Shown: positions 1-21,531 of the stretch, in pieces
Layout of the letters: every line of letters starts with the position of its first letter
Position numbering within the stretch: the stretch's first letter is position 1
IMG/VR virus record: IMGVR_UViG_3300023178_000220
Span: 1 to 26,928 of that record
Source of the DNA: a virus
Length of the DNA: 26,928 bases
Reading direction: 5' to 3' (one strand)
Notes under the pieces: model-generated
Databases searched by the model: none
The model's input: the letters and a program-made list of their open reading frames with translations, nothing else
What the model was told of the DNA's origin: nothing
Made by a program: the position numbers and the translations under genes

Positions 1-1452
1 ATTAGCACAATCCATTGCTGTGACTCCAGTGCTACCTGTTAGTGTAGCAAACTTTTCTTCAACACCTTTTTCTATTTGTATGCCACCTGCTGTTGTGTTT
101 AATACTGCTGTGTTTGTATGATAAAGTGTAGCAATACCGTTTGCGGCTGATATAGCAGTATTTGCCGATGCGCCATCTTGTATTCTAACTGTGCTACCGT
201 CTAAGATTAAAGTGCCTGTGTTGTTATCGATATTACCTGTTGTGCCACTGTGATATATTCTCATATCATTACCAGTGCCAAACCTAACTTCCTCATTATC
301 GTCAAGGTCAATAGGTTTAGTAAGTGCTGATGAGTTTAGTGTGCCATTTGAACTGTCTACTAATAGTGTAGAGTCAGCGGCAACAACATCTATTGATTGT
401 GATGAACCGCTTGGGATAACAATACTAGAAGTTGCATTTGTAATAGCAGTATCAACTTGTGTTTGTGTGTAAGCATCTGTTATGCCATAACCTGATAGTG
501 TAGTTGGTGTACTTGTAATGTTTGAAAATGCTGTTGTCACACCTGTCAACGCACTACCATCTATTGCCGGTAGAGCACCTGTAAGTGTTGTAGCGTTCAA
601 TGTGCCGTTTACACCATCTACTAATAGTGTGCTATCGTCTGCAAAAACACTACCTGTCACATCACCATCAAGTGCTGATACAGTGATGCCTGTTAACGCA
701 CTACCGTCTATTGCTGGTAAAGCACCTGTCAATGTTGTAGCGTTTAGTGTGCCGTTAACACTGTCTACTAATAGTGTTGAATCGGCCGCAACAATATCTA
801 TTGATTGTGTTGAGCCTGCTGGTAATACTGAACTTGTAATAGCACTATCTACTTCTGCTTTTGTGTAAGCATCAGTGATACCATAACCTGCGATTGTAGT
901 TGGTTTGCTTGTAATGTTTGAAAATGCAACACTGCTGGCAGTTATACCAGTTAATGCACTACCGTCTATTGCTGGTAAAGCTCCTGTTAACGCACCTGCA
1001 TTTATTGTACCTGCTACACCGTCTATTAGTACAGTTGAATCATCTGCGGCTACCGTGCCTATCAGTTCACCTTCAAACTTTCCTGTAAATGTTTGCGTTG
1101 CTGAATCAAATACCTTTGTACTGTCATCTGCAAAAATATCACCTTGCACATCTTTAATTTGTAAACTACCGCCACTGACAACTAAATTTCCACTACCGTC
1201 TGCTTCAAGTCTAGCGCCACCTATAACAATAAAGTCTCTGATGTGGGCTTCACCCCATTGATTTGTAGTGCTTCCTAAATTATAAGCACCGTTAGTATCA
1301 GGGACCATATTAGATCCTATACTGTCAAGATCTAATGTTGTTGCAGCATAAAGCTCATTAAAATTATCATTAATTTTATCAAATGCAGTTCTTAATGGAT
1401 CTCCATTGCCTGCATTAACGCTTGTACCTATGTTGATAGTTTGCTTAGCCAT
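1..1452 (-). CDS. Tail-fibre-like structural protein (3' end outside window)
   Basis: Open from ATG at 1452 to the window edge, 484 codons with no stop, so the C-terminus is missing. The start overlaps the stop of the preceding 2828-aa fibre gene by one base (TAATG), which suggests translational coupling. The N-terminus (MAKQTINIG..., then GNGDPLRTAF and NDNFNELY) closely matches the N-terminus of the 2828-aa protein upstream, a motif seen in T4-like marine phage fibre and baseplate-associated proteins. The body is low-complexity and rich in Gly, Thr, Ser, Asp and Ala, with three copies of a unit containing LPAIDGSALTG and two copies of a PTT-(I/L)-(A/S)-GYGITDAYT unit. This is typical of beta-structured fibre shafts. 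Probably a virion fibre or fibre-associated protein acting in host adsorption. Function is inferred from composition, N-terminal motif and neighbours. Confidence 0.8.
   Translation of the reverse strand, partial: MAKQTINIGTSVNAGNGDPLRTAFDKINDNFNELYAATTLDLDSIGSNMVPDTNGAYNLGSTTNQWGEAHIRDFIVIGGARLEADGSGNLVVSGGSLQIKDVQGDIFADDSTKVFDSATQTFTGKFEGELIGTVAADDSTVLIDGVAGTINAGALTGALPAIDGSALTGITASSVAFSNITSKPTTIAGYGITDAYTKAEVDSAITSSVLPAGSTQSIDIVAADSTLLVDSVNGTLNATTLTGALPAIDGSALTGITVSALDGDVTGSVFADDSTLLVDGVNGTLNATTLTGALPAIDGSALTGVTTAFSNITSTPTTLSGYGITDAYTQTQVDTAITNATSSIVIPSGSSQSIDVVAADSTLLVDSSNGTLNSSALTKPIDLDDNEEVRFGTGNDMRIYHSGTTGNIDNNTGTLILDGSTVRIQDGASANTAISAANGIATLYHTNTAVLNTTAGGIQIEKGVEEKFATLTGSTGVTAMDCAN
549..1034 (-). 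repeat. Imperfect tandem repeats in the fibre gene
   Basis: Three related segments of about 80 bp lie at about 549-630, 696-777 and 953-1034. Each encodes a variant of (D/N)ST-LVDGVNGTLNA-TLTGALPAIDGSALTG on the minus strand. A second pair of repeats at 474-531 and 870-927 encodes AFSNITS-PTT-GYGITDAYT. They are in-frame protein repeats of a fibre shaft, not a DNA element: spacing is irregular and the differences include synonymous changes. Confidence 0.85.
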
Positions 1453-4400
1453 TATACTCTCCCTACCACAACTTCAACTGTGCCTTTGCCATCATCTTGT
1501 TTAGCACCTACTGCCTTACCAATGACCTGGCCAACTCCTGGTGAATTGTTTACAATAGCATATCCTGGAATAGCACTTGTGACTAGCATGTCTCCTTTTT
1601 CTACCCGACCTAGTACCTTACATGGTACACGACCTTGCAATGCTATTGCTGTGACATGTTCGCCTTCTAAATTAGAATTCATTAGGTGTGCTGGACTAGT
1701 TGAAACTACACCAGCTACTCTTGTATTACCTTTTGTGTTTGTGGTCGTAATTTCATTGTCTCCGCCAAAAACTAATACAGTGCCTGCTTCATACTCTGCA
1801 TCTGCTAGATAGTTCTCAGCCAAGTCAGCATATTGTGCATTTGTTGCTGTTCCATCAAAAACACTAGCATAGACTGTATTCCATTTTCTTCCACTAGCAC
1901 CTAAGTTTCTATTATTGCCAGTTGCATCAGGTTCAATGTTTGAATCAACTCTTGAGGTAAATGTAATAGTGTCTGATGTTGCATTACCAATATCTACGTT
2001 TCCATTAAATGTTGCTGTGCTTCCTACAGATAATGTTCCGCTTGTTGCAATATTACCTGATGTGTTTGCTACTGTAAATGCACCGTCTACATCTATACCA
2101 CCATCTAAACTTGCAAGACCATCAGATGTAAGTGTACCTGTTATGTCAACATTGTTGAGTGCGTTTAAGTGTCCACTGGAATCAATAGTCACAGCTGATG
2201 CCCCGCTGGTCACAAACAATATAGTGTCTGCTGCACTTTCAGTAAATCCACCACCTGCTCCTAAACCAATACCAGTGCTACCACTGCCTCTTTCTGTTGC
2301 TGCTTCTAAGAAGTTTGTATAAACCCAGTCACTTGCAAGGAAGCCTTCGCCTGTGTAAGAACTTGCTGTTTGAAAATCACTTTCTGTAGAAATACCTGTA
2401 CTACCAACATCTACAATACCTTTAAAATCTGTGACTAGTGATTCTGAAGTTGTACCAACAGCTTCAAACACAACTGCTTGTCCAGGTGTTTTAATTTGTA
2501 ATGTTGTTCCAGCACCTGTTGTTGTTGCAACTTCATAGCTGTCAGCGCCTCCTAATACAAGTCCTTGAGCTCTGATATTACCGTCTGATAATGTTTTTAC
2601 AATTTTACTATTTTCACCACTTGTTGTGACTTCAGTGGTGCTGTAAGTATTTGCCGCTGTTCTTATAAGGACTTCATCACCGCTACTACCAAAGGTACCA
2701 AATTCCGAATCACGCAATGCGCCGCCTTGATCTAAAACTGTATCAAATGATAAAGCACTAACTGCTCCATCGCCTGCTGCACTTCTACCTAATACTGTGT
2801 CGGTTGCGATATGTTGCAATTTGCTAGGATCAATACCTGTAGTTGTACTTGAACTTGTTTGTAGTTCAACAAAACCATTTGTTTCTGTAAATTCAGTATC
2901 TTTAAATGTTGCAAGTCCTAGATCACTTTGCGAAATACCTGTTGCGTTTGCTCTTGTACCTGCGGTATTCATTGCAAGTTTGCTTTGTGCTATTGCAGCA
3001 GAACTATTAACATCTGCATTTATAATACTATCAGCCTCAATTTGGAAATCAAACTCTGTGCCACTTGCAGTACGTGTGATTGTTAAATTAATATCACTAC
3101 TTGTTGCTTCTGAAGCATGAGAAATTTCACTAAATGGCCCGCCTACGTCTGCTTGTAAAGGAGTTGTTAAACCAACTGCTTGAGCTGACCCCCCATTTTC
3201 ATATATTGTGTCGTTATCAGGATCGAAAGTTCCTGAGCTAACTGTGTAAACAATCTTTCTTATAGAACCAAACTGTTCATCTGTGAGACTTTCTAGATCT
3301 ACAATAACACCTGTAGCACTTGGTGTAGTAGGATCATTTTGTATTGTGTCTCCTATAGTGAATGTACCACCAGTTTCAGGCTCTGTATAAATTATCTGTT
3401 TACCAGTAAACACTGTAAGTTCATTAGATCCTACTGTACCTACTGATGTGTCTCTAAGTTGTTTGACTGTAGCAAATGCGTTTGCATTGTCGTCAACATA
3501 GTTTTTATTTGTAGCATCACTACCGCTTGCAGGTGTATCAACATTTTGTACTTTGAATCCACCCATGTCAAGATTGGCTTCCATTGTGCTTAATCCATTA
3601 AGCGGTAAGAATCCTGGTCCAATTCTATTTGCACTTCCAGGTATTTGAGTATTTGACTTGCTGTTAAATCCAAGTATACGGTTTAGGTATCCTCCTATTG
3701 CTTTTTCTGTTGGAACTGCTTGCCCTGAATCATCTGCAAAACTATCATCTGCAGAGAATTCGTTTATTGTGACACCCTTTTTAAATCCAAGGGCGTTTGC
3801 ATTAGAAAGTCCAATTTCACCTGCGAAAGTAATATCACCTGTTGATTGATCTACACTAAAGAATTTACCAACTCTAAAGAATCCATCTTGGTCTGTACTT
3901 ACAAAGAACACTCTACCTTTTCTACGTTCCCAAACTTGTGCAGTAGTTGCAGTTTCGGCATCTGTATAAAATTCTGCAAGACTGTTTACTGGATCACCTA
4001 AAATAACATTTGGATAGTTTGACTGGTTAAACGATCCTGTACCAATTTGTGTAAAATCATGTCCTGTTGCACGTAGTAAAGATATTGCAATAGTTATTTC
4101 TGCGGTACTGCCCGCAGTTAAACCTGCACTTAAAGTTCTTTCAGCTGCAGGAATAGCACTGTTGATACCAGCTCCGCCGTAAGAAGTATTAATATTTGTA
4201 GAAGCAATATCAACAATATCAATGTAAGCCCATTGATCTAATGCAACACTGGTAGGCACACTATTTGCTCCTAATGCTCCGCTTGTGCTTCCTGTAATAG
4301 TATCTGTAGTATTAAATGTTCCTGTGACATCATATACTTCTATTGAACTACCTGTGGTATTTGCTAAAACAACTGCTGTTGCACCTGTGTTTGCTTGTGT

Positions 4401-7400
4401 TAGTGTTTCACCTTGTACTACTGTAATGCTTCCTGTTGTGTTTAGAGTTGAAACAGTGTGATAACCTGTAATGCCGTGTGTTTTTCCATCCCATACAAAT
4501 CTCATTCCACCACTAGCACTATAGCCAGGATCTGTTGGATATAATCCTTCTTGTGTACTGCTATCTCTTGTGACACGTTCTGTATCATCAAATAAATTTA
4601 AAGCACTTGCTGTTAAAGGTGTGATAGCAATTTTTGTATCACCTTGTGCTGATCCATAACCACCTGTTAGGTTTGTTGTAGAAATTTCCATATCTACAAA
4701 ATCAAAACCAACTTCAAACGTAGTAAGGATTTCATCTGCAGCTAAATCTGTGCTGAAAGAATCTTTATTTGAAAAAGCAATACTTCTATATGTTGTCTGA
4801 TCACTTTCATCAAAGTTTACTGCTGTTGATGGACGAGTGACCAAGTTGTCAGGATCGGCTACACTGTCAAATATAAAATTGAAATTGTCTCTGTATTCTA
4901 TTATGGTGCCATCTGCGACTGTTTCCTGCAGAGTGCCAAAGAAGTCATCTGCTTGAACATCATCCGCTTTAAGATCACACTTGTAAACAATATTGTTGAA
5001 CACTCCTGCTGTTCCATAAACAGTAGATACGTCTATAGTCAAATCGTTTGTAGGTGTTGATCCTCCTAGATCAGCTCCACTTATAGTAATAGTGTCAGTA
5101 GCAAGATAACCACTTCCTGGTGTATTGATACTTACAACTGCTGCTCCAGCTGCACCAATAACACCAACTCCAGTTATGGTGACGTCAACAGTTAGTCCTG
5201 TACCTCCACTGGCTGCACCACTGGTTGCAACTTCGCTAAATGTTTGTGCTGTTGCTGTAGTTCCTGCTAGAGATGTAGCGTCTAATGCCTTAACACCTGA
5301 CATTACTACATCACCACTTTCACCTATTACGCCGTCACCGTCTGCATCTGATAAATTTGTCACTGTAGATACAACATAGTTTAAAGTTCCAGCAGTTGGA
5401 TGGTCTATTGTAATTAAACTGTTTGCTGTTGGGGGACGTTTAAGATCCGTTAAGTGTATTGAAGGTTCATCAAAAGCATTTGTGAAAGTAGTATCAGTAA
5501 ATACTTTTGCGGCTTGCACCATATCATATTTTGTGCTAACTTGGTCTGGTATTTCATTAGGATCTGCACCTTCTGCAATAAGTCCAAAATTACCATATCC
5601 ATTTGAACAATTTAATCCTCTAATTTCTGAACCGTTGTTCGCATACATAGCTGTTTGACAGTAGTAAGTAAAAGTAGACACTTGTTCTGAAAAAGCTGCG
5701 TTGTTAGCAATTAATCCATAACCTAAATCGTTAATTTGTGTAAAGTCGTTTGCAAGCAAACTTCTATTACCAGCAGTTTGGAAGAATATACTTCTTGGTA
5801 CAACCGGGTTGTCAAATTGTGTTTCATCATAACCAGTACCTTCGTTTGAATTGGCATCTAAAAATATAGTTGCCGTACCCTGTCCTTGGTCATAGTTTGC
5901 AATAGCGTTAACCTGATATCTTCTTCCTTCTACATAAAAAGGACAAGGTAATTCAGGTGGACGCAGTCTTAATCCTTCGCCTGTATTACTTTGTACTGTT
6001 AACTGAAAGTTATTAACTTTTGTAAGTATATTTGCAGGCAGGTTTCCTACATACGCATCAACATACATACCACCAGCAAATGTTTTTTGGTTTATAGACT
6101 TACTGAAACTTGATGCTGTTTGAATATATGGAGATTTAGTTAATACCTGTCCTTCCGGATCAAGCACACACATAAAGCCTCCGTGTCCTTGCACAGTCAC
6201 GTTTCTAATAATTGTAGCATCACTCATTAAGAATACGTCAAGTTCATCATTTCTTTTAGGTGGGTTGTATTCTACATCAAACACAAAGTTAATTTTGTCT
6301 ATGAGATTACCAACTAGAGCTCCTGTTCCTGACTCTCCTGCTCCTAATGTAGTATCAGGAGTTTCAATTGCTAGTACACCTGCACTACCTGCTGTGTACT
6401 CACCGAATGTTATTGCATCAGCATCTGCACTTACAAAGGTATGCGCTGATGTTTCGCTTGATGTTCCTACATTTACTGTAATAGTTGTTGCAGTTTTTGC
6501 GGTTATTTCTAATTTAGTTTGGAATGCCGGGTCAGTCGTTCTTGGGTAGGCAATTTGCGCAACATTACCGTCTGATGCACAAGTAAATGTTAAACTTTCA
6601 GGTTCGACTTCTATATACTGCCCTGTTTCTAAACTGTGTGAACCAATTGTTAAAACAAGTATTCCTGTCAAAGGATCATAGGTTGCAAATGTTGGTGTAA
6701 ATGTTGCATCTACAACAGTATAATTAGGAGCATTACCTGCAAGTAAAGCATTAGACAGAGTACTAATATTATCTATAGCTGCTTGTGTAGCAACTTCTTG
6801 AGTACTGTCACCTAACTGTGTAAGATAATCACCTGTTCCGTCTGTGATAAGTGTGTGATAGCTTCCTTGAACTTCTAGTGTTCTTTCTTCTCCACCATTT
6901 GTTAAATCTGCAACCAATGCATCTATAATTAATCCTGTATCTCTACGACATTTAGATGTGCTATATGTAAGATCAGGGAATCTGTCACTAATATATCTTA
7001 TTGTTTCTTCAATTATGTAATCTTTATTTTCTTTAAGAATATTAGAAGCAGTTGTATAACTTCCTATATTACTAATATCACTTCCTACGTTGACTGGCCT
7101 ATCACCTCTGAAAAGATAATGGTATCCAAATCTACCTTGAGCAACTCCATCTTGGTTAAAGAATGTAGTACCACCATTAGTAAGTGTCAACCCATCAAAT
7201 TCATTATCTCTATAGAAATAAAGTTTTGACCATTTACTTTGTGACACACGAGGAACTCTAGATAATGTTTCAGTTTTTGGTTTTATAATAACTCTTCTAA
7301 ATTCATCACCTTTCAGAGATACATTGGCACTTAACCTTATAGGATAATCTTCTTCGTAAATACCTGTTTCAACTCTGATAGCAACTTGTTTCTTTTTAAC

Positions 7401-9938
7401 AAAGTTTCCAAATTCTAATGGCTCTTCAGGCTCAAAGTCTTTTGCACTTAATAAATGAAGTTGGAAAACGGTAGGCCCTGGTTCTAATGCTCCTGTTTGA
7501 GGATCTGTTGCAGCTTCTGCTCCTACGTCATTAGTAAAACTTACTATTTGACCAATTGCTTCTGAACGTTTACCTCTAATTACTTTGCCAGGCAGTGCAT
7601 CAGTATTTCCTGGATTGGTTTGATCTGTATATGTGCTTGCACCATTTGTCACTACTAGTTTATATGTACTTCCGTAAACAATATCTCCGCCGGAGTCTAA
7701 TCCATTTTGTATTATGTTAACAACTAAATCAAATTTGTCTCCAACTGCTGTGACAGCATTTGAATCTGCATCTAAGTCTCTAGCAACTGTTGTAGGAACA
7801 CTGTCAGGTCCTAGTGCTCCGCTTACTGTACCTGTTAATTCATTACCAGTATTAAATTCACCCGTTGTGTTTTCTAATTGTATTGTAGTTCCGTTTGTGA
7901 TTGAACTTACAACAATACCTGTAGCACCACTTCCTGCTTGTGTAATTGTCTCACCTGCTGTCACAGACACATTGCCTGTAGTTGTGATTGTTATTATTGT
8001 TCCTAAATCAAAATATTGGTCTTCCTCAATTTGATAGACTTGTCCTAAAATTCCGCTACCTGTATATCCATCAAAAGATGAAGTATCAAACGGAATTTCT
8101 AAACTAGAGTCGTTGTACAATTCTAAAGTTTGTGTTCCTGTTGCTTTAACATATTTTTTTGTGTTGTCGGCAATCTGAGTCATGCCTTCTATATCTCTTA
8201 GGACTATGATATCTCCGTCGCTAAGACCGTGTGCTGTCGTAGTAGTCAGTGTAGGTATTTCAGCAACTGTAATACTTTGAATATTTTTTTGATTTAAAAG
8301 ATCGTTTGTTAGTGCAGCAACAGCAATATCTCTTGCTTTGACAATACCTGCTACTGTTTCAGTCAATTGTGAAGTAATAGCAATTCTTGCACTTACACCC
8401 GAGTAATAGCTTTGTGCTGCTTGTATTGTTAGATAGTTTGCTGTAAGTCCCCTGTTAATATCAAGGGCAATAGCATCAATAATAAGTCCGGTGTCTCTTT
8501 TACATGTATCTACATTATAAGCAAAGTCTGGAAAATTACTACTTACAAATGCAACAACTTCATTTGCAATGTAATCTCTATTGTTGTCTAAAAGTTTTCT
8601 AGCTTGCTCATATACAGGCACATCTACATCAGCATTTATAATAACAGAGTCTTTTGTAAAGTTTGTATGAGTAAGAGTCTGCATATAGTTTCCTGGTTCG
8701 ACAGGAGCAGCTTTTATTAATTCTTCTGCACGTTCTGCAGCTTTGTTGATTGTTTTAAATGCATATGTAAATGATGTACCTTCTTTTCCTGGAGGAACAC
8801 CTTGCATAGTATCATCACCTTGTGTGCTTACAAAAAGTACTTCTGGTGAACTATAAGCAGTATTGTCTACATAAAATTTTGTTGCTGCTTGTAAATCTTC
8901 ATCACCATTTGGTTTGCCTTGTCCTGCTAATTCGCCTGGGTGATCTGATAGGAACAAATTTCCAGTCATGGTATCGCCTTGCCTACGAACAATACTAGTT
9001 CTTGGCATCGCTGTATCGGACAAGAAATTTCCTGATAAATTTGTATCTAATGCCTCATCACGTATAGTGTGCGTGTCGTCAGGTGCAATAGTTCCAGACA
9101 CTAAGACTTTATTATCTTCAGCATCACTATCTATGTCAGTAGTTGCAAACTCTTTGTTTGCTTCTGTGTAAAAGTTCAACCTTGTAGGCGTCACAACTCT
9201 AATGTAATAAGTTGTACCACTAACTAATCCTGTAGGATCTGTATCTTCAGCATTGAAAACTACAGCAAGACCGTTTGATCCTGACTCTAAACCATGTCCT
9301 GTTAAATCCACAGACTGATCTGTATTGTTATGTCTAGTAATTTCAACTGTATTATCTACATAAGAATTTATAGTCCATGTATAATGTGCTTGTCCTGTAG
9401 GTTCTTCTTGTACTCTTAATGGCAGTCCTGATGTTATATATCTTTGATCAGCATAGCCTTTTGTAATTACAAGGTCATCTACAGTCAAACCACTTAAATT
9501 ATCATGTGCAGCATTTAATGCTTCTGCGGCAGCAGTGCTGATGCCTACATTACCAATACCAAATCCTGCTGCATCTATAGGTCCACCTAATGTAGGACTT
9601 AAATCATCTGCAACTTTAGTAAATGCACTTGAAATTATTAGTTTACCTGCTTCGTCATAATTGAAAGTAATTGTATCTTGTGCATCAGGATCAGCTGCAC
9701 TATTACTAGCTAATTGCACTAAATTTACAAAGGTGCCTGCGTCATTAACTAATGGAATTGTATTTGCGGATAATTCACTAGGTGTATCACTTAATGAGCT
9801 AAAAGTAATTTGTCCACCAACACCGAATACTGCATATAGTTCTGTAAAGTTTTCGTTTACTTTTCTAAACGATTCTCGAATACTATCACCAGTTCCGTCA
9901 TTACCCTCAACACCAATGTTTACGTCTTGTTTTGCCAT
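1452..9938 (-). CDS. Giant tail-fibre-like protein, 2828 aa
   Basis: Starts at ATG 9938 behind GGAG (7-nt spacing) and ends in a TAA that shares its last base with the next fibre gene. The N-terminus carries the VNIG..GNDGTGDSIRESF and NENFTELY motif of T4-like marine phage fibre proteins. The rest is Gly/Thr/Ser/Asp-rich beta-type sequence. Two related segments carry a C(K/R)RDTGLIIDA core, near residues 480 and 995, each preceded by a YI..E...(Y/F)(I/V)S..FPD stretch. Two copies of a GET-TQA-(S/T)GAT ... SGALG-(A/P)-(D/N)SVPT module lie near residues 660-715 and 1840-1895. A region around residues 830-880 (IRVETGIYEEDYPIRL...) resembles a right-handed beta-helix. The last 130 residues (QYADLAENYLADAEYEAGTV...) form a distinct C-terminal domain found on phage fibres, possibly chaperone or self-cleaving. 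Likely a late virion protein for host recognition. The assignment as fibre is confident; which T4 fibre it replaces is not clear. Confidence 0.88.
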   Translation of the reverse strand: MAKQDVNIGVEGNDGTGDSIRESFRKVNENFTELYAVFGVGGQITFSSLSDTPSELSANTIPLVNDAGTFVNLVQLASNSAADPDAQDTITFNYDEAGKLIISSAFTKVADDLSPTLGGPIDAAGFGIGNVGISTAAAEALNAAHDNLSGLTVDDLVITKGYADQRYITSGLPLRVQEEPTGQAHYTWTINSYVDNTVEITRHNNTDQSVDLTGHGLESGSNGLAVVFNAEDTDPTGLVSGTTYYIRVVTPTRLNFYTEANKEFATTDIDSDAEDNKVLVSGTIAPDDTHTIRDEALDTNLSGNFLSDTAMPRTSIVRRQGDTMTGNLFLSDHPGELAGQGKPNGDEDLQAATKFYVDNTAYSSPEVLFVSTQGDDTMQGVPPGKEGTSFTYAFKTINKAAERAEELIKAAPVEPGNYMQTLTHTNFTKDSVIINADVDVPVYEQARKLLDNNRDYIANEVVAFVSSNFPDFAYNVDTCKRDTGLIIDAIALDINRGLTANYLTIQAAQSYYSGVSARIAITSQLTETVAGIVKARDIAVAALTNDLLNQKNIQSITVAEIPTLTTTTAHGLSDGDIIVLRDIEGMTQIADNTKKYVKATGTQTLELYNDSSLEIPFDTSSFDGYTGSGILGQVYQIEEDQYFDLGTIITITTTGNVSVTAGETITQAGSGATGIVVSSITNGTTIQLENTTGEFNTGNELTGTVSGALGPDSVPTTVARDLDADSNAVTAVGDKFDLVVNIIQNGLDSGGDIVYGSTYKLVVTNGASTYTDQTNPGNTDALPGKVIRGKRSEAIGQIVSFTNDVGAEAATDPQTGALEPGPTVFQLHLLSAKDFEPEEPLEFGNFVKKKQVAIRVETGIYEEDYPIRLSANVSLKGDEFRRVIIKPKTETLSRVPRVSQSKWSKLYFYRDNEFDGLTLTNGGTTFFNQDGVAQGRFGYHYLFRGDRPVNVGSDISNIGSYTTASNILKENKDYIIEETIRYISDRFPDLTYSTSKCRRDTGLIIDALVADLTNGGEERTLEVQGSYHTLITDGTGDYLTQLGDSTQEVATQAAIDNISTLSNALLAGNAPNYTVVDATFTPTFATYDPLTGILVLTIGSHSLETGQYIEVEPESLTFTCASDGNVAQIAYPRTTDPAFQTKLEITAKTATTITVNVGTSSETSAHTFVSADADAITFGEYTAGSAGVLAIETPDTTLGAGESGTGALVGNLIDKINFVFDVEYNPPKRNDELDVFLMSDATIIRNVTVQGHGGFMCVLDPEGQVLTKSPYIQTASSFSKSINQKTFAGGMYVDAYVGNLPANILTKVNNFQLTVQSNTGEGLRLRPPELPCPFYVEGRRYQVNAIANYDQGQGTATIFLDANSNEGTGYDETQFDNPVVPRSIFFQTAGNRSLLANDFTQINDLGYGLIANNAAFSEQVSTFTYYCQTAMYANNGSEIRGLNCSNGYGNFGLIAEGADPNEIPDQVSTKYDMVQAAKVFTDTTFTNAFDEPSIHLTDLKRPPTANSLITIDHPTAGTLNYVVSTVTNLSDADGDGVIGESGDVVMSGVKALDATSLAGTTATAQTFSEVATSGAASGGTGLTVDVTITGVGVIGAAGAAVVSINTPGSGYLATDTITISGADLGGSTPTNDLTIDVSTVYGTAGVFNNIVYKCDLKADDVQADDFFGTLQETVADGTIIEYRDNFNFIFDSVADPDNLVTRPSTAVNFDESDQTTYRSIAFSNKDSFSTDLAADEILTTFEVGFDFVDMEISTTNLTGGYGSAQGDTKIAITPLTASALNLFDDTERVTRDSSTQEGLYPTDPGYSASGGMRFVWDGKTHGITGYHTVSTLNTTGSITVVQGETLTQANTGATAVVLANTTGSSIEVYDVTGTFNTTDTITGSTSGALGANSVPTSVALDQWAYIDIVDIASTNINTSYGGAGINSAIPAAERTLSAGLTAGSTAEITIAISLLRATGHDFTQIGTGSFNQSNYPNVILGDPVNSLAEFYTDAETATTAQVWERRKGRVFFVSTDQDGFFRVGKFFSVDQSTGDITFAGEIGLSNANALGFKKGVTINEFSADDSFADDSGQAVPTEKAIGGYLNRILGFNSKSNTQIPGSANRIGPGFLPLNGLSTMEANLDMGGFKVQNVDTPASGSDATNKNYVDDNANAFATVKQLRDTSVGTVGSNELTVFTGKQIIYTEPETGGTFTIGDTIQNDPTTPSATGVIVDLESLTDEQFGSIRKIVYTVSSGTFDPDNDTIYENGGSAQAVGLTTPLQADVGGPFSEISHASEATSSDINLTITRTASGTEFDFQIEADSIINADVNSSAAIAQSKLAMNTAGTRANATGISQSDLGLATFKDTEFTETNGFVELQTSSSTTTGIDPSKLQHIATDTVLGRSAAGDGAVSALSFDTVLDQGGALRDSEFGTFGSSGDEVLIRTAANTYSTTEVTTSGENSKIVKTLSDGNIRAQGLVLGGADSYEVATTTGAGTTLQIKTPGQAVVFEAVGTTSESLVTDFKGIVDVGSTGISTESDFQTASSYTGEGFLASDWVYTNFLEAATERGSGSTGIGLGAGGGFTESAADTILFVTSGASAVTIDSSGHLNALNNVDITGTLTSDGLASLDGGIDVDGAFTVANTSGNIATSGTLSVGSTATFNGNVDIGNATSDTITFTSRVDSNIEPDATGNNRNLGASGRKWNTVYASVFDGTATNAQYADLAENYLADAEYEAGTVLVFGGDNEITTTNTKGNTRVAGVVSTSPAHLMNSNLEGEHVTAIALQGRVPCKVLGRVEKGDMLVTSAIPGYAIVNNSPGVGQVIGKAVGAKQDDGKGTVEVVVGRV
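4242..4425 (-). repeat. Internal protein module, copy 2 (partner at 7787-7965)
   Basis: Encodes TVVQGETLTQANTGATAVV through TGSTSGALGANSVPTSVA in the 2828-aa fibre protein. It is a clear diverged duplicate of the module at 7787-7965. The two copies are about 3.5 kb apart, so this is a dispersed domain duplication, not a tandem array. Confidence 0.75.
7787..7965 (-). repeat. Internal protein module, copy 1 (partner at 4242-4425)
   Basis: Encodes SVTAGETITQAGSGATGIV through TGTVSGALGPDSVPTTVA. It shares the GET-TQA-GAT core, the TG(E/T)FNT segment and the SGALG..SVPT end with the second copy. Such dispersed duplicates within fibres are candidate points for intragenic recombination. Confidence 0.75.
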
Positions 9939-9950
9939 TTATTGCTCCAA

Positions 9951-10313
9951 TTATGCAGTTTCTGCTAACTTATCAAAATCAAAATTTACACTAACTCCAC
10001 AACCACATGAACTTTTTGCATTTGGATTAATTATATCAAACATCGATCCCATGATATCTTTTTTATAATCAATTACAGTGCCTACTAAAAACATTACGCT
10101 TTCTGCACCTACCACAAATGTATTACCTAAATCTGTTTTAAAAACTTCATCATCGGCATTTAGATCTGCTTCGTTTTGTATAGTATCCCATCTATATTCA
10201 AATCCTGCACATCCGCCACCCTTCATATTAAGTGTGACTGCAAATACTTTATTCTCTTTGCATATTGTGTCTATTTGTGCTTTAGCGGCGTCTGTTAGTG
10301 TAAGAATGCTCAT
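9951..10313 (-). CDS. A-type iron-sulfur carrier (IscA/HesB family)
   Basis: 120 aa, the usual family length. The three family cysteines are present: Cys35 in GGGCAGFEYRW, and Cys103 and Cys105 in the C-terminal SSCGCGVSV. In this family they bind iron or a [2Fe-2S] cluster and pass it to apo-proteins. The start at 10313 is preceded by GAGAGG with good spacing, and by a T4-late-type element (GATAAATA) about 20 nt further up. The gene ends 12 bp before the start of the 2828-aa fibre gene, so the two are probably co-transcribed late. An additional Cys18 is not a standard ligand. Family assignment is near certain. Which subtype it is (IscA, ErpA, SufA) and what it serves in a tail-fibre operon cannot be read from sequence. 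Confidence 0.95.
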   Translation of the reverse strand: MSILTLTDAAKAQIDTICKENKVFAVTLNMKGGGCAGFEYRWDTIQNEADLNADDEVFKTDLGNTFVVGAESVMFLVGTVIDYKKDIMGSMFDIINPNAKSSCGCGVSVNFDFDKLAETA

Positions 10314-10373: not shown

Positions 10374-10661
10374 ATGTTCATAAAAGAATTTACAGTATCA
10401 AAGCGGCACGAACGGAACAGTAAATTAGGTAAACCTCATGAGTACTGGCGTACAAGCACTTTTGTAGAATTAAGGTGTGATAGTTGTGGAAATGATTTTA
10501 CAAGAACTAGGGGATCAATGGATCCTAATAGAATAAACAACAATTACTTTCATGTATGTAAAAATTGTGATAGTAAAAGGTTTGCACAAAAAATGGGCAT
10601 AACCCGTAAACAAATATGGGATATGCCCGCAAGTAGTAATCTAGATATTAGTAAAATTTAG
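10374..10661 (+). CDS. Small zinc-finger protein, plus strand
   Basis: About 95 aa from the ATG at 10374; an in-frame ATG at 10329 would add 15 residues. Neither start has a good Shine-Dalgarno, and the nearby TATAAT favours 10374. The sequence has two paired cysteine knuckles, CDSCGND in the middle and CKNCD about 25 residues later, which is a typical zinc-binding pair. It is rich in Lys and Arg (SKRHERNSK, KRFAQKMGITRKQIWD), so nucleic-acid binding is plausible. It is one of only two plus-strand genes in the window, divergent from IscA and convergent with the 54-aa membrane protein gene, whose end it overlaps by 4 nt. HNH-like or transcription-factor roles are possible, but no catalytic motif is visible. 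Confidence 0.75.
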   Translation: MFIKEFTVSKRHERNSKLGKPHEYWRTSTFVELRCDSCGNDFTRTRGSMDPNRINNNYFHVCKNCDSKRFAQKMGITRKQIWDMPASSNLDISKI

Positions 10662-10822
10662 TCTTTCTTGTAAATTGTCCAAGCTCCATAAGCAATAGCA
10701 ATACCTGCTGCTATTTTTGCTAATGGTGAAAGGAACAAGACAAGTAATCCTAATATAATTAGAACTGCACCGTCCCATGAAGTTCTTTCCTTCATTCGTG
10801 CATCTATCCATTTTTTAATCAT
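10658..10822 (-). CDS. 54-aa membrane protein
   Basis: Starts at ATG 10822 behind AAGAGGAG, overlapping the end of the SOD gene by 8 nt. A short basic amphipathic N-terminus (MIKKWIDARMKERTSWDG) is followed by a hydrophobic stretch of about 30 residues with a central SPLAK turn, then YGAWTIYKKD. It could be one long or two short membrane segments with both ends in the cytoplasm. Similar short proteins with a WDG....SP.....AYGAW pattern are, as I recall, common in T4-like marine phages, with no known role. It is too short for a typical holin, though a small membrane-active role is possible. Confidence 0.75.
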   Translation of the reverse strand: MIKKWIDARMKERTSWDGAVLIILGLLVLFLSPLAKIAAGIAIAYGAWTIYKKD

Positions 10823-11372
10823 TGTTGTCTCCTCTTAAAACAATTACACCGCAAGCTAACCTATCGCCTGCATTTCCTGTTTTTAATGATTCCGAATCTC
10901 CGCCTTTGCCTAGGTCATCTTCATCTTTGTGTACTACAATAGCCCTACCAACAATACTTCTCTCGCCAGTAAGTGATATTCTATTTGCAACAATCCGTAT
11001 GTTAGCAACACCGTTGCTATCAGCAACAATATTACCCAGATCGCCAACATGTCCTTTTTTAAGATCTCCATGATCCACTCCGTCTGGGTTGTAATGTGCA
11101 CCTGCACTTTCACAACCTTTACTTAAATCTCCGTATTCATGCACATGAAATCCGTGTTTGCCCGGCTCAAGTCCGCTAATTGTTCCTTTGATGACTGTAG
11201 GTCCGCCTGACGTTTTTTGCATCATTACAATATTACCTTTTACAGTATCAGAATGTTCTAATTCGCATTGAGCAATTAGTTGATCAGAGTCAGCTTCAGT
11301 AATAGACAACGCTTCGCACTGGCATTGTTTAGCCCGTGTTCTAGGACATCTGTCTATCTCTATAAATCTCAT
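10815..11372 (-). CDS. sodC: Cu/Zn superoxide dismutase
   Basis: 185 aa. The enzyme converts superoxide to oxygen and hydrogen peroxide. All metal ligands of the family are visible: copper His76 and His78 (GFHVHEYGD), bridging His93 (GAHYNP), zinc His101, His108 and Asp111 (HVGDLGN), and His148 (VVHKDEDDLG). The structural disulfide pair Cys87/Cys174 and the active-site Arg171 (GDRLACGV) are also present. The SOD fold starts near residue 33. The first 32 residues form an extension with three cysteines (CPRTRAKQCQCEAL) and no hydrophobic signal peptide, so export by Sec is not predicted. That is odd, because bacterial SodC is normally periplasmic. The start overlaps the stop of the 57-aa gene (TAATG), and a late-type promoter lies upstream. 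It looks catalytically intact. Confidence 0.96.
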   Translation of the reverse strand: MRFIEIDRCPRTRAKQCQCEALSITEADSDQLIAQCELEHSDTVKGNIVMMQKTSGGPTVIKGTISGLEPGKHGFHVHEYGDLSKGCESAGAHYNPDGVDHGDLKKGHVGDLGNIVADSNGVANIRIVANRISLTGERSIVGRAIVVHKDEDDLGKGGDSESLKTGNAGDRLACGVIVLRGDNND

Positions 11373-11545
11373 TAGAACTTATAACCGTCTTTGGTAGTTC
11401 TTCCTGTAGCATTTCTAGCAGGTTCTACTTTTTTAAGTCCAGGTTCCTTTTTTAATGGAACAACTGTGCTTTTAGGTCTTATATCTGGTCTAACACCTAC
11501 GATTTTATCAAGCACTAAGTTTTGTGGTTTCCCTGTTGTTTTCAT
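11372..11545 (-). CDS. 57-aa basic protein of unknown function
   Basis: ATG at 11545 has a strong Shine-Dalgarno (TAGGAGAATACTATG), and the stop overlaps the SOD start by one base. The product is rich in Lys, Arg and Pro (KKEPGLKKVEPARNATGRT), has no cysteine or membrane segment, and is probably largely unstructured. Its first 38 bases lie inside the 3' end of uvdE in another frame. Its best claim to being real is the combination of Shine-Dalgarno, a late-promoter match 18 nt upstream and tight coupling to SOD. Confidence 0.7.
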   Translation of the reverse strand: MKTTGKPQNLVLDKIVGVRPDIRPKSTVVPLKKEPGLKKVEPARNATGRTTKDGYKF

Positions 11546-12575
11546 AGTATTCTCCTACCCAGTATTTATGCAAATCTATACTTGCTAGGTTCTTGGCTTT
11601 GGATTCGCACATAATATCTGCATAAGGTAAAAATGATAAGGCATAGTCATTTACAGCATTGTTAGGATAGTAATCACTGTGGGCTCGTAATTTTGCTTTT
11701 TTGTATCCTGTTTCTAATAGTATATTCATAGCAGGCATTGTATCGTGAGCAAAATCTGTAGGAAGATGTTCGTCCCTACTGTAAGAATAATGTATAACAG
11801 GACGCACACCACGCCAACTGTCAATTACGCGAGCAAATCTATCGTCGGTGGGCTGTATGTATTCACCTTCACGGCACCAGTGATGGTGTATGTCAAGAAC
11901 GAGTGCGACATCGTCGGCAAGCTCGAGGCTTGCGTCGAGTCCCCATTTGTTTTCGTCGTTCTCGATCGTGATGGTGTTTCGTGCTTCGGGCGAGAGTCTC
12001 TTGAGGGCGTCTTTAATGCCTTGTGGACCTTTTCGACCCGATATGTGTACATTGCACTTGAAGTCTTGGAATTGTGTGCCGTAGCCCATCCATCTGATGC
12101 AATCCACATGATATTCAAACTCCTCTATTGATCTTTCGACAATCTCGGGGTTGTCGCTTGCAAGAACAGTAAATTGGCCTGGGTGCATCGATAATCGGAC
12201 ATCGAGGGCTCTTGCCGTTTCACCGACTTTTGCGAATTCTTTGGCGGCGTAATCACGTACATCAGACTTGCGCCAGTAATAGCACCAAGTAGGCTCGGTA
12301 TAAACAGGAAGCACATCGCTACCCAATCGGACCATACGAAGCTCAGGTTCAAGGCTTCCCACATATTCAATCAACCTCTTGTATGACGCTATGTTGTGGA
12401 CCATGATATCCCACAAGCGTTCTTCAGCAACATCACGTGTCTGTCTGTTCAGCCACTGTACTGTTGTGCTACGAGTATTTAGCGGTCGCTGAATTTCTTC
12501 AAGTACTTTCTTTTTCTGTGTTTGGTCTGGATGCATATACTTACATGCAAAACCTATACGTCTAATCATACTCAT
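11508..12575 (-). CDS. uvsE: UV damage endonuclease (UvdE/UvsE family)
   Basis: 355 aa, a TIM-barrel, metal-dependent endonuclease that nicks DNA 5' to UV photoproducts in the alternative excision repair pathway. Family features: the N-terminal IRRIGFACKY strand, HPGQF at 131-135, NVHISGRKG near 176-184, ENDENKWGL at 205-213, the DIHHHW metal-site strand at 228-233, HYSYSR and the late HSDYY. The gene stands alone behind a strong sigma70 promoter whose -10 directly abuts the first ATG. The third codon (ATG at 12569) is therefore the likelier start, perhaps on a leaderless mRNA. The 3' end overlaps the 57-aa gene. The central part is much richer in GC, with C- or G-ending codons, than the flanks. 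The function call is secure. Confidence 0.96.
   Translation of the reverse strand: MSMIRRIGFACKYMHPDQTQKKKVLEEIQRPLNTRSTTVQWLNRQTRDVAEERLWDIMVHNIASYKRLIEYVGSLEPELRMVRLGSDVLPVYTEPTWCYYWRKSDVRDYAAKEFAKVGETARALDVRLSMHPGQFTVLASDNPEIVERSIEEFEYHVDCIRWMGYGTQFQDFKCNVHISGRKGPQGIKDALKRLSPEARNTITIENDENKWGLDASLELADDVALVLDIHHHWCREGEYIQPTDDRFARVIDSWRGVRPVIHYSYSRDEHLPTDFAHDTMPAMNILLETGYKKAKLRAHSDYYPNNAVNDYALSFLPYADIMCESKAKNLASIDLHKYWVGEYYENNRETTKLSA
11563..11570 (-). promoter_or_regulatory. T4-type late promoter candidate inside uvdE
   Basis: CATAAATA, 7 of 8 to TATAAATA, 18 nt upstream of the 57-aa gene and its Shine-Dalgarno. It lies within the 3' coding end of uvdE, so it would let the 57-aa/SOD/membrane-protein set be expressed late, independently of the sigma70 promoter of uvdE. 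Confidence 0.5.
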
Positions 12576-19084: not shown

Positions 19085-20056
19085 ATGATAATTTGGGGAA
19101 TGGTAGGAAATAGTCACGATGCTAGTTTGGCTGTTTTTGACAAGAATAAATTGCTTTGGGCTAGTTTGGCAAAAGACTTTTCAGATGTACCAAATGATCC
19201 AAATCCTAATTGGACACAATTAGAAGTCGCTAAACAAAGTTTTGGAAGTCCTAGCAAAATTATTTGGTATGAGCGTCCTTTTTTAAAAACACTTCGTCAA
19301 TGGCGGGCAGGACAAGGTTGGTTATTGAAAGAAAATAACATTACAGATTATCTAGCACGTTGGGATATAAATGCTCCTATTGAATATACACAACACCATT
19401 TATCTCACGCGGCATATGCCTATTACACTCAACCTCATGATGATTGTGCTGTCATTTGTTTGGATAGCATAGGCGAGTTTGAAACACTAACTGTATGGCA
19501 CGGAAAGAACAATAAATTACATAAGATTTACAGTCAAGGTTATCCGCATAGCCTTGGACTTTTCTATAGTGCTATGACACAACGTATGGGTTTACAGGCA
19601 CAACGTGATGAATATCTTGTTAGCCAGTGGGCAAAGAAGGGCAAGGCTAGTAGATTAGCATCAACTTTAATGAAAGAAATTATAGATGTAGATCATAAAA
19701 AAAGAAATCCTCAAAAGATCAAATTGAGACACAACTTACACAGAGGTTGTATGTGGTGGAGACCTGAATTATCGTCACAAAAGGATATGTATGATATTGC
19801 GGCAGCTACACAACATATTTTTGAATATTGTGTAAGTGTTTTAAGTATATGGACAAAAGTACAAACAGATTCAAAACATCTAGCATTAGCGGGTGGCGGA
19901 GCATTAAACAAAGATGCAGTTGATAAAATACAAGGACATTGGGATAATGTATATGTGCCACCCAACCCAGGTGATCCGGGCAGTTGCATAGGTGCAGTTT
20001 TAGCAAAAAATAAAACTAGACAAGAACAATTAAATTGGTATAAAAAGTTGGCATAG
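19085..20056 (+). CDS. Carbamoyltransferase N-terminal domain protein (NodU/CmcH-like)
   Basis: 323 aa on the plus strand, with GGAG about 9 nt before the ATG. Kae1-like ASKHA-domain hallmarks of NodU/TobZ carbamoyltransferases are present in order: GNSHDASLAVF at the N-terminus, HHLSHAAYAYY near residue 100, the LDSIGEFET strand-loop, LALAGGGALNKDA near 270 and PPNPGDPGSCIGAVLA near 295. In full-length enzymes (about 550-600 aa) this domain moves the carbamoyl group from carbamoyl-adenylate to a sugar hydroxyl, and a separate C-terminal domain makes the intermediate. Here the protein ends just after the first domain, so either the phage uses a short version or a partner supplies the rest. 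The stop lies inside the 3' end of the opposite-strand tRNA-Trp. The acceptor is unknown; glycans or modified DNA are candidates. Confidence 0.85.
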   Translation: MIIWGMVGNSHDASLAVFDKNKLLWASLAKDFSDVPNDPNPNWTQLEVAKQSFGSPSKIIWYERPFLKTLRQWRAGQGWLLKENNITDYLARWDINAPIEYTQHHLSHAAYAYYTQPHDDCAVICLDSIGEFETLTVWHGKNNKLHKIYSQGYPHSLGLFYSAMTQRMGLQAQRDEYLVSQWAKKGKASRLASTLMKEIIDVDHKKRNPQKIKLRHNLHRGCMWWRPELSSQKDMYDIAAATQHIFEYCVSVLSIWTKVQTDSKHLALAGGGALNKDAVDKIQGHWDNVYVPPNPGDPGSCIGAVLAKNKTRQEQLNWYKKLA

Positions 20057-20125
20057 GTGCAAGGATTCGAACCCTGACTTACAGTTTTGGAGACTGTCGT
20101 GCTAAACCGTTGACACTACACCTAC
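20049..20125 (-). tRNA. tRNA-Trp (anticodon CCA)
   Basis: Acceptor GTAGGTG pairs with CACCTAT, with a G-T wobble at the end pair. T8/A9, a 4-bp D stem (GTGT/GCAC) with GG in the loop, anticodon stem ACAGT/ACTGT with loop CTCCAAA, and T loop TTCGAAT are all present. Discriminator G and CCA are encoded. The 3' end lies antisense over the last 8 bases of the carbamoyltransferase-like gene. Confidence 0.93.
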
Positions 20126-20154
20126 GCAGTCATTTTAATATACAAAAAAATTGA

Positions 20155-20319
20155 TTATTTGTCAACTTCTTTTTTAACGCCGCCTTGTTTGCCACAGTGC
20201 GGACAATGGAAGGAAAATCTATCTATGCATAACTTGTCTTCCATTGTTGCATAGGTAAACCAGTTATTACAATTTGTGCATGTGAGATGCCATATTATTT
20301 CTTTTACGGCCTTGAACAT
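20155..20319 (-). CDS. 54-aa zinc-ribbon protein
   Basis: ATG at 20319 to TAA at 20155. Two cysteine knuckles, LTCTNCNNW at residues 12-20 and HCPHCGK at 38-44, form a four-cysteine zinc ribbon. Short zinc ribbons of this kind are common in T4-like phages and may bind nucleic acid or protein. No Shine-Dalgarno precedes the ATG. A perfect late element TATAAATA ends 9 nt upstream, so a leaderless or near-leaderless late mRNA is implied. A Lys-rich C-terminus (KKEVDK) follows the ribbon. Confidence 0.78.
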   Translation of the reverse strand: MFKAVKEIIWHLTCTNCNNWFTYATMEDKLCIDRFSFHCPHCGKQGGVKKEVDK

Positions 20320-20327
20320 TCTAATGG

Positions 20328-20335
20328 TATTTATA
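20328..20335 (-). promoter_or_regulatory. T4 late promoter (exact TATAAATA)
   Basis: Exact match to the T4 late promoter octamer. It sits directly after the terminator of the upstream ncRNA and 9 nt before the zinc-ribbon ATG. Confidence 0.72.
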
Positions 20336-20340
20336 AAAGA

Positions 20341-20376
20341 AAAAAGACCTATTCAATTTCTTGAATAAGCCTTTTT
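20341..20376 (-). terminator. Intrinsic terminator of the ncRNA
   Basis: On the minus strand a 16-bp stem (AAAAAGGCTTATTCAA / TTGAATAGGTCTTTTT) closes a GAAA tetraloop and continues into a T-rich tail. All 16 positions pair in minus-strand RNA, two as G-U. On the plus strand those two become A-C mismatches, so the hairpin is selected for the minus strand. Confidence 0.88.
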
Positions 20377-20600
20377 AAAAATAAGCAATTATAGGGAGGA
20401 CTCGGTTATACCTCCAACCCCTCGCCACAGATGCCATTCTGATAACCAGGGAACCTACTTCCGCTCGGTAGAGCGATGTGACTCAGCGTATTTCTACTAC
20501 CAAGCCTGGGTACCACCCCTAAGCAGTCAAGTTCGACGCTCTGGTAAACGCCTCTTCCTTGCACTATATAAAAACTCTAGCTACAAGTTTTTAGCTTATG
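20377..20600 (-). ncRNA. Structured non-coding RNA of unknown family, about 220 nt
   Basis: No ORF fits this stretch, and GC is about 50% (91 of 180 in 20401-20580), well above its surroundings. A strong sigma70 promoter points into it and an intrinsic terminator follows. The predicted first bases (ATAAGC, 20599-20594) pair with GCTTAT (20386-20381) just before the terminator. Inside, TATAG can pair with CTATA and GTTTACC with GGTATAAC. A hairpin CGCTC-TACC-GAGCG lies at 20475-20462, and an 8-bp hairpin with a G-U pair that favours the minus strand lies near 20592-20570. GGTT-GGAGG-TAT-AACC-GAGT-CCTCC at 20419-20395 can form an H-type pseudoknot. It lacks the tRNA-like end of tmRNA and the conserved cores of RNase P RNA and SRP RNA. 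Its place in the tRNA cluster recalls the T4 stable RNAs C and D. Family and function are unknown. Confidence 0.75.
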
Positions 20601-20605
20601 TATAC

Positions 20606-20634
20606 ACTATAGCAAATTATTACTATAATGTCAA
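20606..20634 (-). promoter_or_regulatory. Sigma70-type promoter of the ncRNA
   Basis: TTGACA (20634-20629), 17-bp spacer, TATAGT (20611-20606), identical in both hexamers and spacing to the ligase promoter. The expected start at about 20599 coincides with the first base of the end-closing stem. Confidence 0.88.
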
Positions 20635-20664
20635 CCTCTTTTTTACCAAAATAGTAAAAAAAAT

Positions 20665-20748
20665 TGGTGCCCCAGGAGAGATTCGAACTCTCACGCCTCT
20701 CAGCACTGGTTCCTAAGACCAGCGTGTCTACCGTTCCACCACCGGGGC
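20665..20748 (-). tRNA. tRNA-Leu (anticodon TAG)
   Basis: Acceptor GCCCCGG/CTGGGGC, anticodon stem CTGGT/ACCAG with loop CTTAGGA, a long variable arm as in class II tRNAs, T loop TTCGAAT, and encoded A-CCA. It reads CUA. A run of eight T follows just after the CCA. Its first base is also the last base of the stop codon of the upstream 62-aa gene. Confidence 0.95.
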
Positions 20749-20936
20749 TAAGTAGATGTTGAACCAACTGGTTTACATTCATATTGCACTGTATCCCAAT
20801 CACCGTCTGCTGGGATATCTATGTAAACCTTTAGCATTTGATCACATTCTGCTTTAGTGTCAAACCGTTGAACGTCTTGTTCGATACAAGTCGAACCCAA
20901 ACATACGGTTAACAAAATGTGCCAAATTATTTCCAT
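20748..20936 (-). CDS. 62-aa small protein with hydrophobic leader
   Basis: ATG at 20936 is preceded by AAGGAAG at good spacing. The N-terminus MEIIWHILLTVCLGSTCIEQD looks like a short signal or membrane anchor. The rest is a small domain with Cys8 or Cys18-type residues in the leader and two further cysteines (KAECDQMLK, VQYECKPVG), plus a conserved-looking IPADGDW turn. Similar short proteins with TVC-G-TC and YECKPVG patterns occur, as I recall, in T4-like marine phages. Probably periplasmic or membrane-attached. The TAG stop shares its G with the first base of tRNA-Leu, and its start lies 14 nt upstream of the end of tRNA-Thr's flank, so it is tightly embedded between tRNAs. Confidence 0.75.
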   Translation of the reverse strand: MEIIWHILLTVCLGSTCIEQDVQRFDTKAECDQMLKVYIDIPADGDWDTVQYECKPVGSTST

Positions 20937-20949
20937 GTCACTTCCTTAA

Positions 20950-21025
20950 TGGTGCTGGCACACGGACTCGAACCGCGGACCTACTGATTACAAATCAGTT
21001 GCTCTACCAACTGAGCTATGCCAGC
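20950..21025 (-). tRNA. tRNA-Thr (anticodon TGT)
   Basis: Acceptor GCTGGCA/TGCCAGC, D arm AGCTCAGTTGGTAGAGC, anticodon stem ACTGA/TCAGT with loop TTTGTAA, T loop TTCGAGT, discriminator A and encoded CCA. It reads ACA. Two bases separate it from tRNA-Gly. Confidence 0.96.
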
Positions 21026-21027
21026 TC

Positions 21028-21101
21028 TGGAGCGGGTAAGGAGAATCGAACTCCTATCCTCAGCTTGGAAGGCTGCGATAATACCATTATACTATACCCG
21101 C
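21028..21101 (-). tRNA. tRNA-Gly (anticodon TCC)
   Basis: Acceptor GCGGGTA/TACCCGC, anticodon stem GCAGC/GCTG(A) with loop CTTCCAA, T loop TTCGATT, discriminator T and encoded CCA. It reads GGA. Its first 10 bases are also the last codons and stop (TAG) of the upstream HExxH protein gene. Confidence 0.95.
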
Positions 21102-21529
21102 CCACAATATTTAGAAACTAAATCAAATACTAATCTTGTGTTTTTATAGATGTTGTTTGCTTCAGCTTCTATTATGTGATACTTTTCCTTGTAAAGTCTT
21201 TTGACCTTAGCAGAAATGTATTTAACTTCTTGTAATGATTCTAGCTCTGCATTTTGAAATCCAGCTTTGCAATCCTGTGCTAAATGCACTGCTTCATGTA
21301 AAAGTTTATCGATCATAATGCTTTCTGCATTTACACCAAACTTATTAACAATATTATCTTTACAAAGTGTAATACTGTTCGACCTAGGAAGATAGTATGC
21401 ATTCATACTATAATCTTTGCAATAGTATCCTTCGTATTTAATTGGTACATATTTTGATAAAAATTGATAATAATTTTCTTGAGCAAAAACTGGATGACAA
21501 CTTGCCATAAAACATAAAACAACAAACAA
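21092..21529 (-). CDS. Exported HExxH protein, possible metallopeptidase
   Basis: The reading frame is open through the upstream tRNA-Ser, so the true start must be downstream of it. TTG at 21529 (145 aa) directly follows the tRNA CCA and gives a complete signal peptide (LFVVLCFMASCHPVFA before QENYY). An ATT at 21532 or the ATG at 21508 are alternatives; the last would cut the signal peptide short. The mature part contains LLHEAVHLAQDC, an HExxH zinc-peptidase motif (His78 and His82 from the TTG), followed by a helix with ESLQEVKYISAKV that could supply a third ligand (Glu). Paired cysteines (YYCKDY, TLCKD, AQDCKAG, KYCGRV) suggest disulfides in the periplasm. Its last 10 bases overlap tRNA-Gly. 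A role in envelope passage or lysis is possible. Confidence 0.72.
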   Translation of the reverse strand: MFVVLCFMASCHPVFAQENYYQFLSKYVPIKYEGYYCKDYSMNAYYLPRSNSITLCKDNIVNKFGVNAESIMIDKLLHEAVHLAQDCKAGFQNAELESLQEVKYISAKVKRLYKEKYHIIEAEANNIYKNTRLVFDLVSKYCGRV

Positions 21530-21531
21530 AA

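Follow-up and report, generated by a model that had tools for sequence, protein, structure and literature searches.

The closest described systems to the locus analyzed here are the internal proteins of T4, the virion-associated enzymes of a T4-like cyanophage, and the Cu/Zn superoxide dismutases (SODs) of other viruses. In T4, the prohead protease gp21 cuts after the Glu of the motif L/I-X-E, and the first ten residues of internal protein IPIII, the capsid-targeting sequence (CTS), suffice for capsid targeting (PMC9026906). Mass spectrometry (MS) of virions of the cultured cyanophage S-CREM2 revealed six non-structural proteins, namely a cytidylyltransferase (NMNAT homologue), a SAM hydrolase, a kinase, Cas9 and two endolysins; the authors warn of possible co-purification (PMC10665884). 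Phage-borne Cu/Zn SODs are represented by the SodC proteins of temperate phages (Gifsy-2, Fels-1 and an Acetobacter phage) and by an Acinetobacter phage record, and the Gifsy-2 protein is annotated as a precursor and lysogenic virulence determinant. SODs with the SOD1-type fold are carried by eukaryotic viruses (baculovirus, swinepox and, according to the literature, chlorovirus), whose hosts make SOD1 capture easy. No report of a SOD in a phage virion was found in our literature search, in which subscription journals were thinly covered, so that an earlier description is possible. Viral SODs and T4 internal proteins are already known; their combination is new as far as we found.

The window, that is, the whole stretch of DNA analyzed in this study, comprises 26,928 nt (positions 1 to 26,928 of IMG/VR record IMGVR_UViG_3300023178_000220). 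It encodes a Cu/Zn SOD of 185 aa on the minus strand (10815..11372, running from the ATG at 11372 to 10815), of which residues 44-177 match the Pfam family Sod_Cu (PF00080, E=6e-47). Alignment with SOD1 places the copper ligands at H76, H78, H93 and H148, the zinc ligands at H93, H101, H108 and D111, the disulfide between C87 and C174, and the active-site Arg at R171. The seven ligands, both disulfide cysteines and R171 show no variation across all 71 distinct viral homologues compared, which bears out the original prediction of an intact active site, and the Thr adjoining the active-site Arg is likewise invariant in 71 distinct viral sequences. A degenerate SOD gene was ruled out by these unchanged residues. 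Because every active-site residue is identical throughout the set, the invariant active site argues strongly that the phage SOD is an active enzyme under selection. A SOD-like protein serving as an inactive decoy or as a structural component, as known from some poxviruses, has a precedent in the database annotation of a Murmansk poxvirus protein ('Inactive Cu-Zn superoxide dismutase-like virion protein'), and is very improbable here given the invariance of ligands, cysteines, Arg and neighbouring Thr.

By sequence, the solved structures closest to the window SOD are eukaryotic cytosolic SOD1 proteins. In a maximum-likelihood tree, 17 virus-type SODs form one clade with support of 100/99, and this clade is nested, again with 100/99, with the SOD1 of nematode, plant, yeast, annelid and mouse and one sequence from a cyanobacterial metagenome-assembled genome (MAG), while 35 bacterial SodC proteins are separate from the SOD1/virus group. 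The AlphaFold2 model has a mean pLDDT of 85, with values above 90 over most of residues 29-181, and contains the Greek-key beta-barrel of SOD1. Its best Foldseek matches are mammalian SOD1 structures, with a target-normalised TM-score of about 0.95 and 52-55% identity, and on the model and these matches the mature SOD domain with SOD1 fold is placed at residues 27-185 (10818..11294, minus strand). Tree and model together indicate that the phage SOD is a member of the eukaryotic-type cytosolic SOD1 group. It shares fold, ligands, disulfide and tree clade with eukaryotic SOD1 of the same Pfam family, and differs in being phage-encoded, in bearing an N-terminal extension made of a tag, a cysteine module and a hydrophobic-x-Glu motif, and in occurring sometimes as a module of longer ORFs. 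The SodC proteins of the temperate phages and of the Acinetobacter phage record are also phage-borne Cu/Zn SODs, but have less than 40% identity to the window protein. A phylogeny had been proposed as a way to find the donor lineage, and it leads as far as the SOD1-type group (100/99); the donor cannot be named, because the branching order inside that group is not settled and the eukaryotes in the tree are five PDB sequences only. The N-terminus of the window protein, MRFIEIDRCPRT, is without a signal peptide or lipobox and has no hydrophobic core, which is normal for a protein of SOD1 type. The comparison with periplasmic bacterial SodC implied by the original prediction does not hold, since tree and fold place the protein with cytosolic SOD1, and a bacterial SodC minus its signal peptide was ruled out on the same grounds.

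Related SODs were found in 7 of 50,697 sequenced phage records, all with less than 40% identity, and none of these isolate records is a SOD-bearing phage of the window's SOD family. Scans of IMG/VR confirmed 160 stretches related to the phage SOD when the window protein was used as query and 288 when an alignment was used. The earlier statement that SOD genes are rare in tailed phages is thus correct for isolates and not for uncultured viruses. The titles of four MAG records with a viral-type SOD, from TMED41, MED657 and Pelagibacter, suggest a marine origin, and the SOD-bearing phage family is uncultured, T4-like and apparently mostly marine. The best four 'cellular' matches (L102-L105) have 63-70% identity to the phage SOD and are probably phage contigs inside MAGs, because phage-type cytidylyltransferase/NT5C ORFs lie near the SOD gene in L103 and L105, the two whose flanks were read. 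L103 (Rickettsiales MED657) and L105 (a Pelagibacter MAG) are listed in GTDB as bacterial MAGs; their contigs resemble the phage group and their SOD is of the viral type.

The SOD gene lies in a conserved neighbourhood on the minus strand. A T4-late-type promoter box, CATAAATA, is located at 11563..11570 (minus strand) inside the 3' end of uvdE, 17 nt before an ORF for a basic 57-aa protein (11372..11545, minus strand), the first gene of the late unit; in 14 loci a homologue of this ORF immediately precedes SOD. The stop codon of the 57-aa ORF overlaps the SOD start (TAATG), pointing to translational coupling. The exact sequence TATAAATA occurs once in the window against 3.4 sites expected, hence without enrichment. 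The shorter box TAAATA is depleted (21 seen, 40 expected) and is informative by position only: 8 of the 21 sites are just upstream of gene starts (P=1e-7). TAAATA also occurs within 300 nt upstream of SOD, mostly 4-9 nt from the ATG, in 36 of 44 related loci counted as having SOD alone, although some of the starts so counted are internal Met codons of longer ORFs. The box and its conservation agree with the late-type promoter noted originally and support late transcription of SOD, as judged from promoter sequence. A TAAATA ending 4-9 nt before the ATG would give near-leaderless mRNAs, provided that transcription starts where it does in T4.

Downstream, and overlapping SOD, is a gene for a 54-aa membrane protein (10658..10822, minus strand), which lies there on the same strand in 46 of 46 loci where it was found and is also present in G1, one of the two largest SOD contigs (G1, 110.9 kb; G2, 221.3 kb), which are linear records and may be fragments. 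A UvdE-type UV endonuclease (11508..12575, minus strand) is the upstream neighbour in 49 of 49 loci where it was found. A HesB/IscA-type Fe-S protein (9951..10313, minus strand) is downstream in 51 of 53 such loci, as is a 2,828-aa tail-fibre-type protein (1452..9938, minus strand) in 53 of 53. The order UvdE, SOD, small membrane protein, HesB and long tail fibre is kept nearly everywhere the genes were found. Elsewhere in the window are five tRNA genes (Trp, Leu, Thr, Gly and Ser; 20049-21621, minus strand), the last of them inside a predicted 178-aa ORF. On the opposite strand (19085-20056, plus) lies a carbamoyltransferase gene whose product matches positions 1-327 of a 528-position family; it is shorter than the 497-aa homologue of G2 and perhaps truncated. 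A 209-aa protein (23637-24266, minus strand) has the PP-loop motif SGGVDSMAALDFL and is perhaps a TilS-like tRNA-lysidine synthase, with only weak QueC/PAPS matches in PHROGs.

The extension that precedes the SOD fold is conserved. Alignments with homologues of 64-81% identity already begin at residue 1 of the window protein, so that an error in start codon or reading frame is ruled out. AlphaFold2 predicts mostly disorder over residues 1-28, with the first strand starting at residue 31. Three elements can be recognized. The first is a candidate capsid-targeting tag, M[KR]xx[ED][ILFM], within residues 1-8 (MRFIEIDR; 11349..11372, minus strand); it was found in 27 of 38 distinct N-terminal forms of SOD, some of which start at an internal Met of longer ORFs, against 9 of 430 ORFs of two related genomes. 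The second is a cysteine module, CxRT[KR][AS]xxCxC, at residues 9-19 (CPRTRAKQCQC; 11316..11348, minus strand). The third is a candidate gp21-type prohead-protease site, I24-T25-E26 (11295..11303, minus strand), recognized by motif and position, where the cut would fall after E26. It sits at the border between order and disorder in the model. The linkers of distinct homologues contain [LIMV]xE in 69 of 69 cases and the strict form [LI]xE in 64 of 69, against a shuffled mean of 22 for the strict form; as the motif is short and the homologues are of common descent, these counts are not independent. Among 17 representatives with linkers less than 50% identical, 14 have the strict and 17 the relaxed form, with 6 expected for the strict form. 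Three sequences carry LKED, with the Glu shifted by one column, and some homologues have an extra hydrophobic-x-Glu at about residues 8-10. The cysteine-containing extension of the original prediction is more than a substitute for a signal peptide, since it combines a candidate tag, the cysteine module and a protease-type site.

C9, C17 and C19 of the module are invariant in 71 of 71 viral homologues. The module was not found in cellular homologues with a recognisable SOD motif, many of which start instead with signal-peptide-like or lipobox-like N-termini. It adjoins SOD in every viral homologue, and since it stays attached to SOD inside every longer ORF as well, its distribution suggests that it serves SOD itself. 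SOD1-type enzymes often depend on the copper chaperone CCS for metallation; eukaryotic CCS has a CxC in domain III, and some bacterial SodC proteins have metal-binding N-terminal extensions. The extension could be a built-in copper-loading element that loads SOD in a bacterial cytoplasm lacking CCS. Copper loading is our preferred guess for the module and agrees with its invariant cysteines and its restriction to viral SODs, but as an account of the extension it remains rather doubtful: the extension has no predicted structure (pLDDT <50), its metal binding is putative, and the window protein has neither an ATX1-like domain I (MxCxxC) nor the C-terminal CxC of CCS, its only CxC being N-terminal. 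Such a role would be compatible with cargo of the phage head and with later removal, as the element may act before the prohead protease takes the extension away.

The tag is shared with proteins unrelated to SOD. In SOD-bearing loci the same tag starts 61 of 958 distinct non-SOD ORFs, against 3.5 after shuffling (maximum 10); a few of the 61, such as HesB, look coincidental, some are mutual homologues, and four are longer SOD-containing ORFs that escaped the SOD filter. Several come near the tag of T4, for example MRIKDLFESEEK in a cytidylyltransferase-like ORF, MKIAEILAEST, MRISEILTEST and MKTKDFINEA. The SOD ORF itself stands in a row of tagged genes in L016, L034 and L234. Arrays of tagged, unrelated proteins were observed in these three loci and in L041, L042, L048 and L052, as well as in G1 (102625-108406) and G2 (40174-41068 and 108238-110160), and it is possible that they represent a general class of head cargo. 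Two further modules were noted. A small basic one, WSKKYKxSIxCxNPKGFSQKAHCAGRKKK, recurs at either end of unrelated proteins, SOD and nucleotidyltransferase-like ORFs among them (a 38-aa N-terminus in L016; C-termini in L031 and at G2 107339). The other, GRIVKGVNTTxDVGxDEIxKQAxKFGNxVDxDGRPPTLSxKVKGSxTNVLYNLG, precedes SOD in L018, L031, L032, L065 and L256.

About a dozen distinct ORFs encode longer proteins in which SOD forms one module. Its partners are an HD hydrolase (L034), NT5C with a GH19-type lysozyme (L065), DUF6267 (L044), a pterin-4a-carbinolamine dehydratase (L234) and a cytidylyltransferase (L064, and part of one in L069). Hydrophobic-x-Glu flanks the SOD module on both sides in these ORFs, as PIQE|SG, VTE|Q or LAE|S before the cysteine module and as LKE|T, VSE|G or VQE|S after the SOD domain. 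The cytidylyltransferase domain fused to SOD in L064/L069 is homologous to S-CREM2 ORF154, the virion-associated cytidylyltransferase/NMNAT (PMC10665884). ORF154 was detected by MS in the virion and has the CTS-like start MKNFSSFLTEA, whereas the phage SOD is known from genes alone.

Reading of the S-CREM2 genes showed that its SAM hydrolase and kinase begin in a similar way (MKDFDSFLEE and MKRFDAFLTE), and its Cas9 (L262 7704-10313, minus strand), beside which these two genes lie, has RFASFMAEA near the N-terminus. In two genome stretches covering about half of the S-CREM2 genome, [LI]xE occurs in the first dozen residues of 7 of 14 MS-detected non-structural proteins and of 9 of 128 undetected ones (Fisher P=1.3e-4). 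On this count, CTS-like starts are associated with virion detection in this T4-like cyanophage. CTS-like starts were also found in S-RIM50 and phage DLP6 (MKKFSAFLTEA and MKNIKDILEA).

Head genes of the T4 type are present in relatives of the window. G1 and G2 both encode Peptidase_S77 (gp21) and Gp23, the ORFs adjoining these resemble portal and scaffold, and jumbo T4-like phages of the PA5oct group have a major capsid protein with 67% identity to that of G1. The window shares more than ten genes with G2, among them UvdE (74%), ligase (69%), SOD (68%) and ClpP (64%). Neither gp21 nor gp23 is within the 27-kb window, which is a genome fragment, and neither was found in the smaller SOD contigs, which as fragments are uninformative either way. 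The ClpP-like 'head maturation protease' of the window was considered as the prohead protease and is less likely, as G2 has a homologous ClpP plus a separate gp21. Two distinct ClpP-like serine proteases are in fact encoded in the window (22555-23139 and 25039-25602, minus strand), the first being the one similar to that of G2 and the second divergent.

A SOD that stays in the cytosol late in infection, unpackaged, would limit oxidative damage in the dying host, its extension having a role in copper or zinc handling or in regulation and its hydrophobic-x-Glu being incidental. The intact active site, the SOD1 type for which export is not expected, and the late promoter all agree with such a role; the invariant cysteine module beside SOD even in longer ORFs argues for a SOD-tied function, and UvdE and HesB next to it would fit a set of genes for damage repair. 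We nevertheless consider an unpackaged SOD unlikely, because it leaves unexplained the tag on 61 unrelated proteins, the site at the domain border in 69 of 69 linkers, the fusion to a protein type found in virions, and the placement in arrays of tagged genes.

Of the three options first raised, protection of late infected cells, a cytoplasmic SOD and virion packaging, the shared tag, the site and the gp21/gp23-bearing relatives favour the last, as we infer. The phage SOD is probably a late-made cargo of the phage head matured by the prohead protease, a reading drawn from sequence comparison: the tag on unrelated ORFs, the [LIMV]xE motif, the late promoter, gp21/gp23 in relatives and the virion-type fusions all point to it. 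SOD would be transcribed late from the T4-type promoter. Its tag would then steer it into the assembling prohead as the CTS does for the internal proteins of T4, a step proposed because the tag is common to unrelated proteins and has the T4 precedent. A gp21-type protease would cut after E26, as motif, position and the presence of gp21 in relatives suggest, stripping off tag and cysteine module, and the complete SOD domain would be left, presumably active, in the mature head. Delivered with the DNA, it could scavenge superoxide near the entering genome or inside the cell just infected; shielding of packaged DNA in sunlit water is a further possible role.

This scheme has in common with the T4 internal proteins (IPI-III and Alt) a putative short N-terminal tag, an L/I-x-E motif, a late-type promoter and, in relatives, a gp21-type protease. 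It differs in that the cargo would be an enzyme, SOD, that a cysteine module lies between tag and site, and that packaging is proposed. The site of the T4 proteins is near residue 10 (8-10), whereas that of the window SOD is at residues 24-26 and its tag alone is without one. The SODs of eukaryotic viruses, unlike the proposed phage cargo, are without gp21-type head maturation.

A wider scheme can be advanced tentatively, and we hold it as conceivable though not probable. T4-like phages may have a general cargo system in which a short capsid-entry tag is placed on many unrelated enzymes, some of them polyproteins with prohead-protease sites between modules; a single long protein would enter the head and be split there into several enzymes. 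SOD would be one such module with its own copper-loading peptide, used in assembly and then cut off.

Among phages of bacteria the locus is a further case of a eukaryotic-type SOD1, and it hints at how a copper enzyme might mature without CCS. If SOD is indeed packaged, these phages would arrive with ready-made antioxidant protection for the next cell. The tag would then serve as a simple rule, read from sequence, for telling those 'auxiliary metabolic genes' of T4-like phages whose products act from inside the virion from those whose products are only made in the infected cell.
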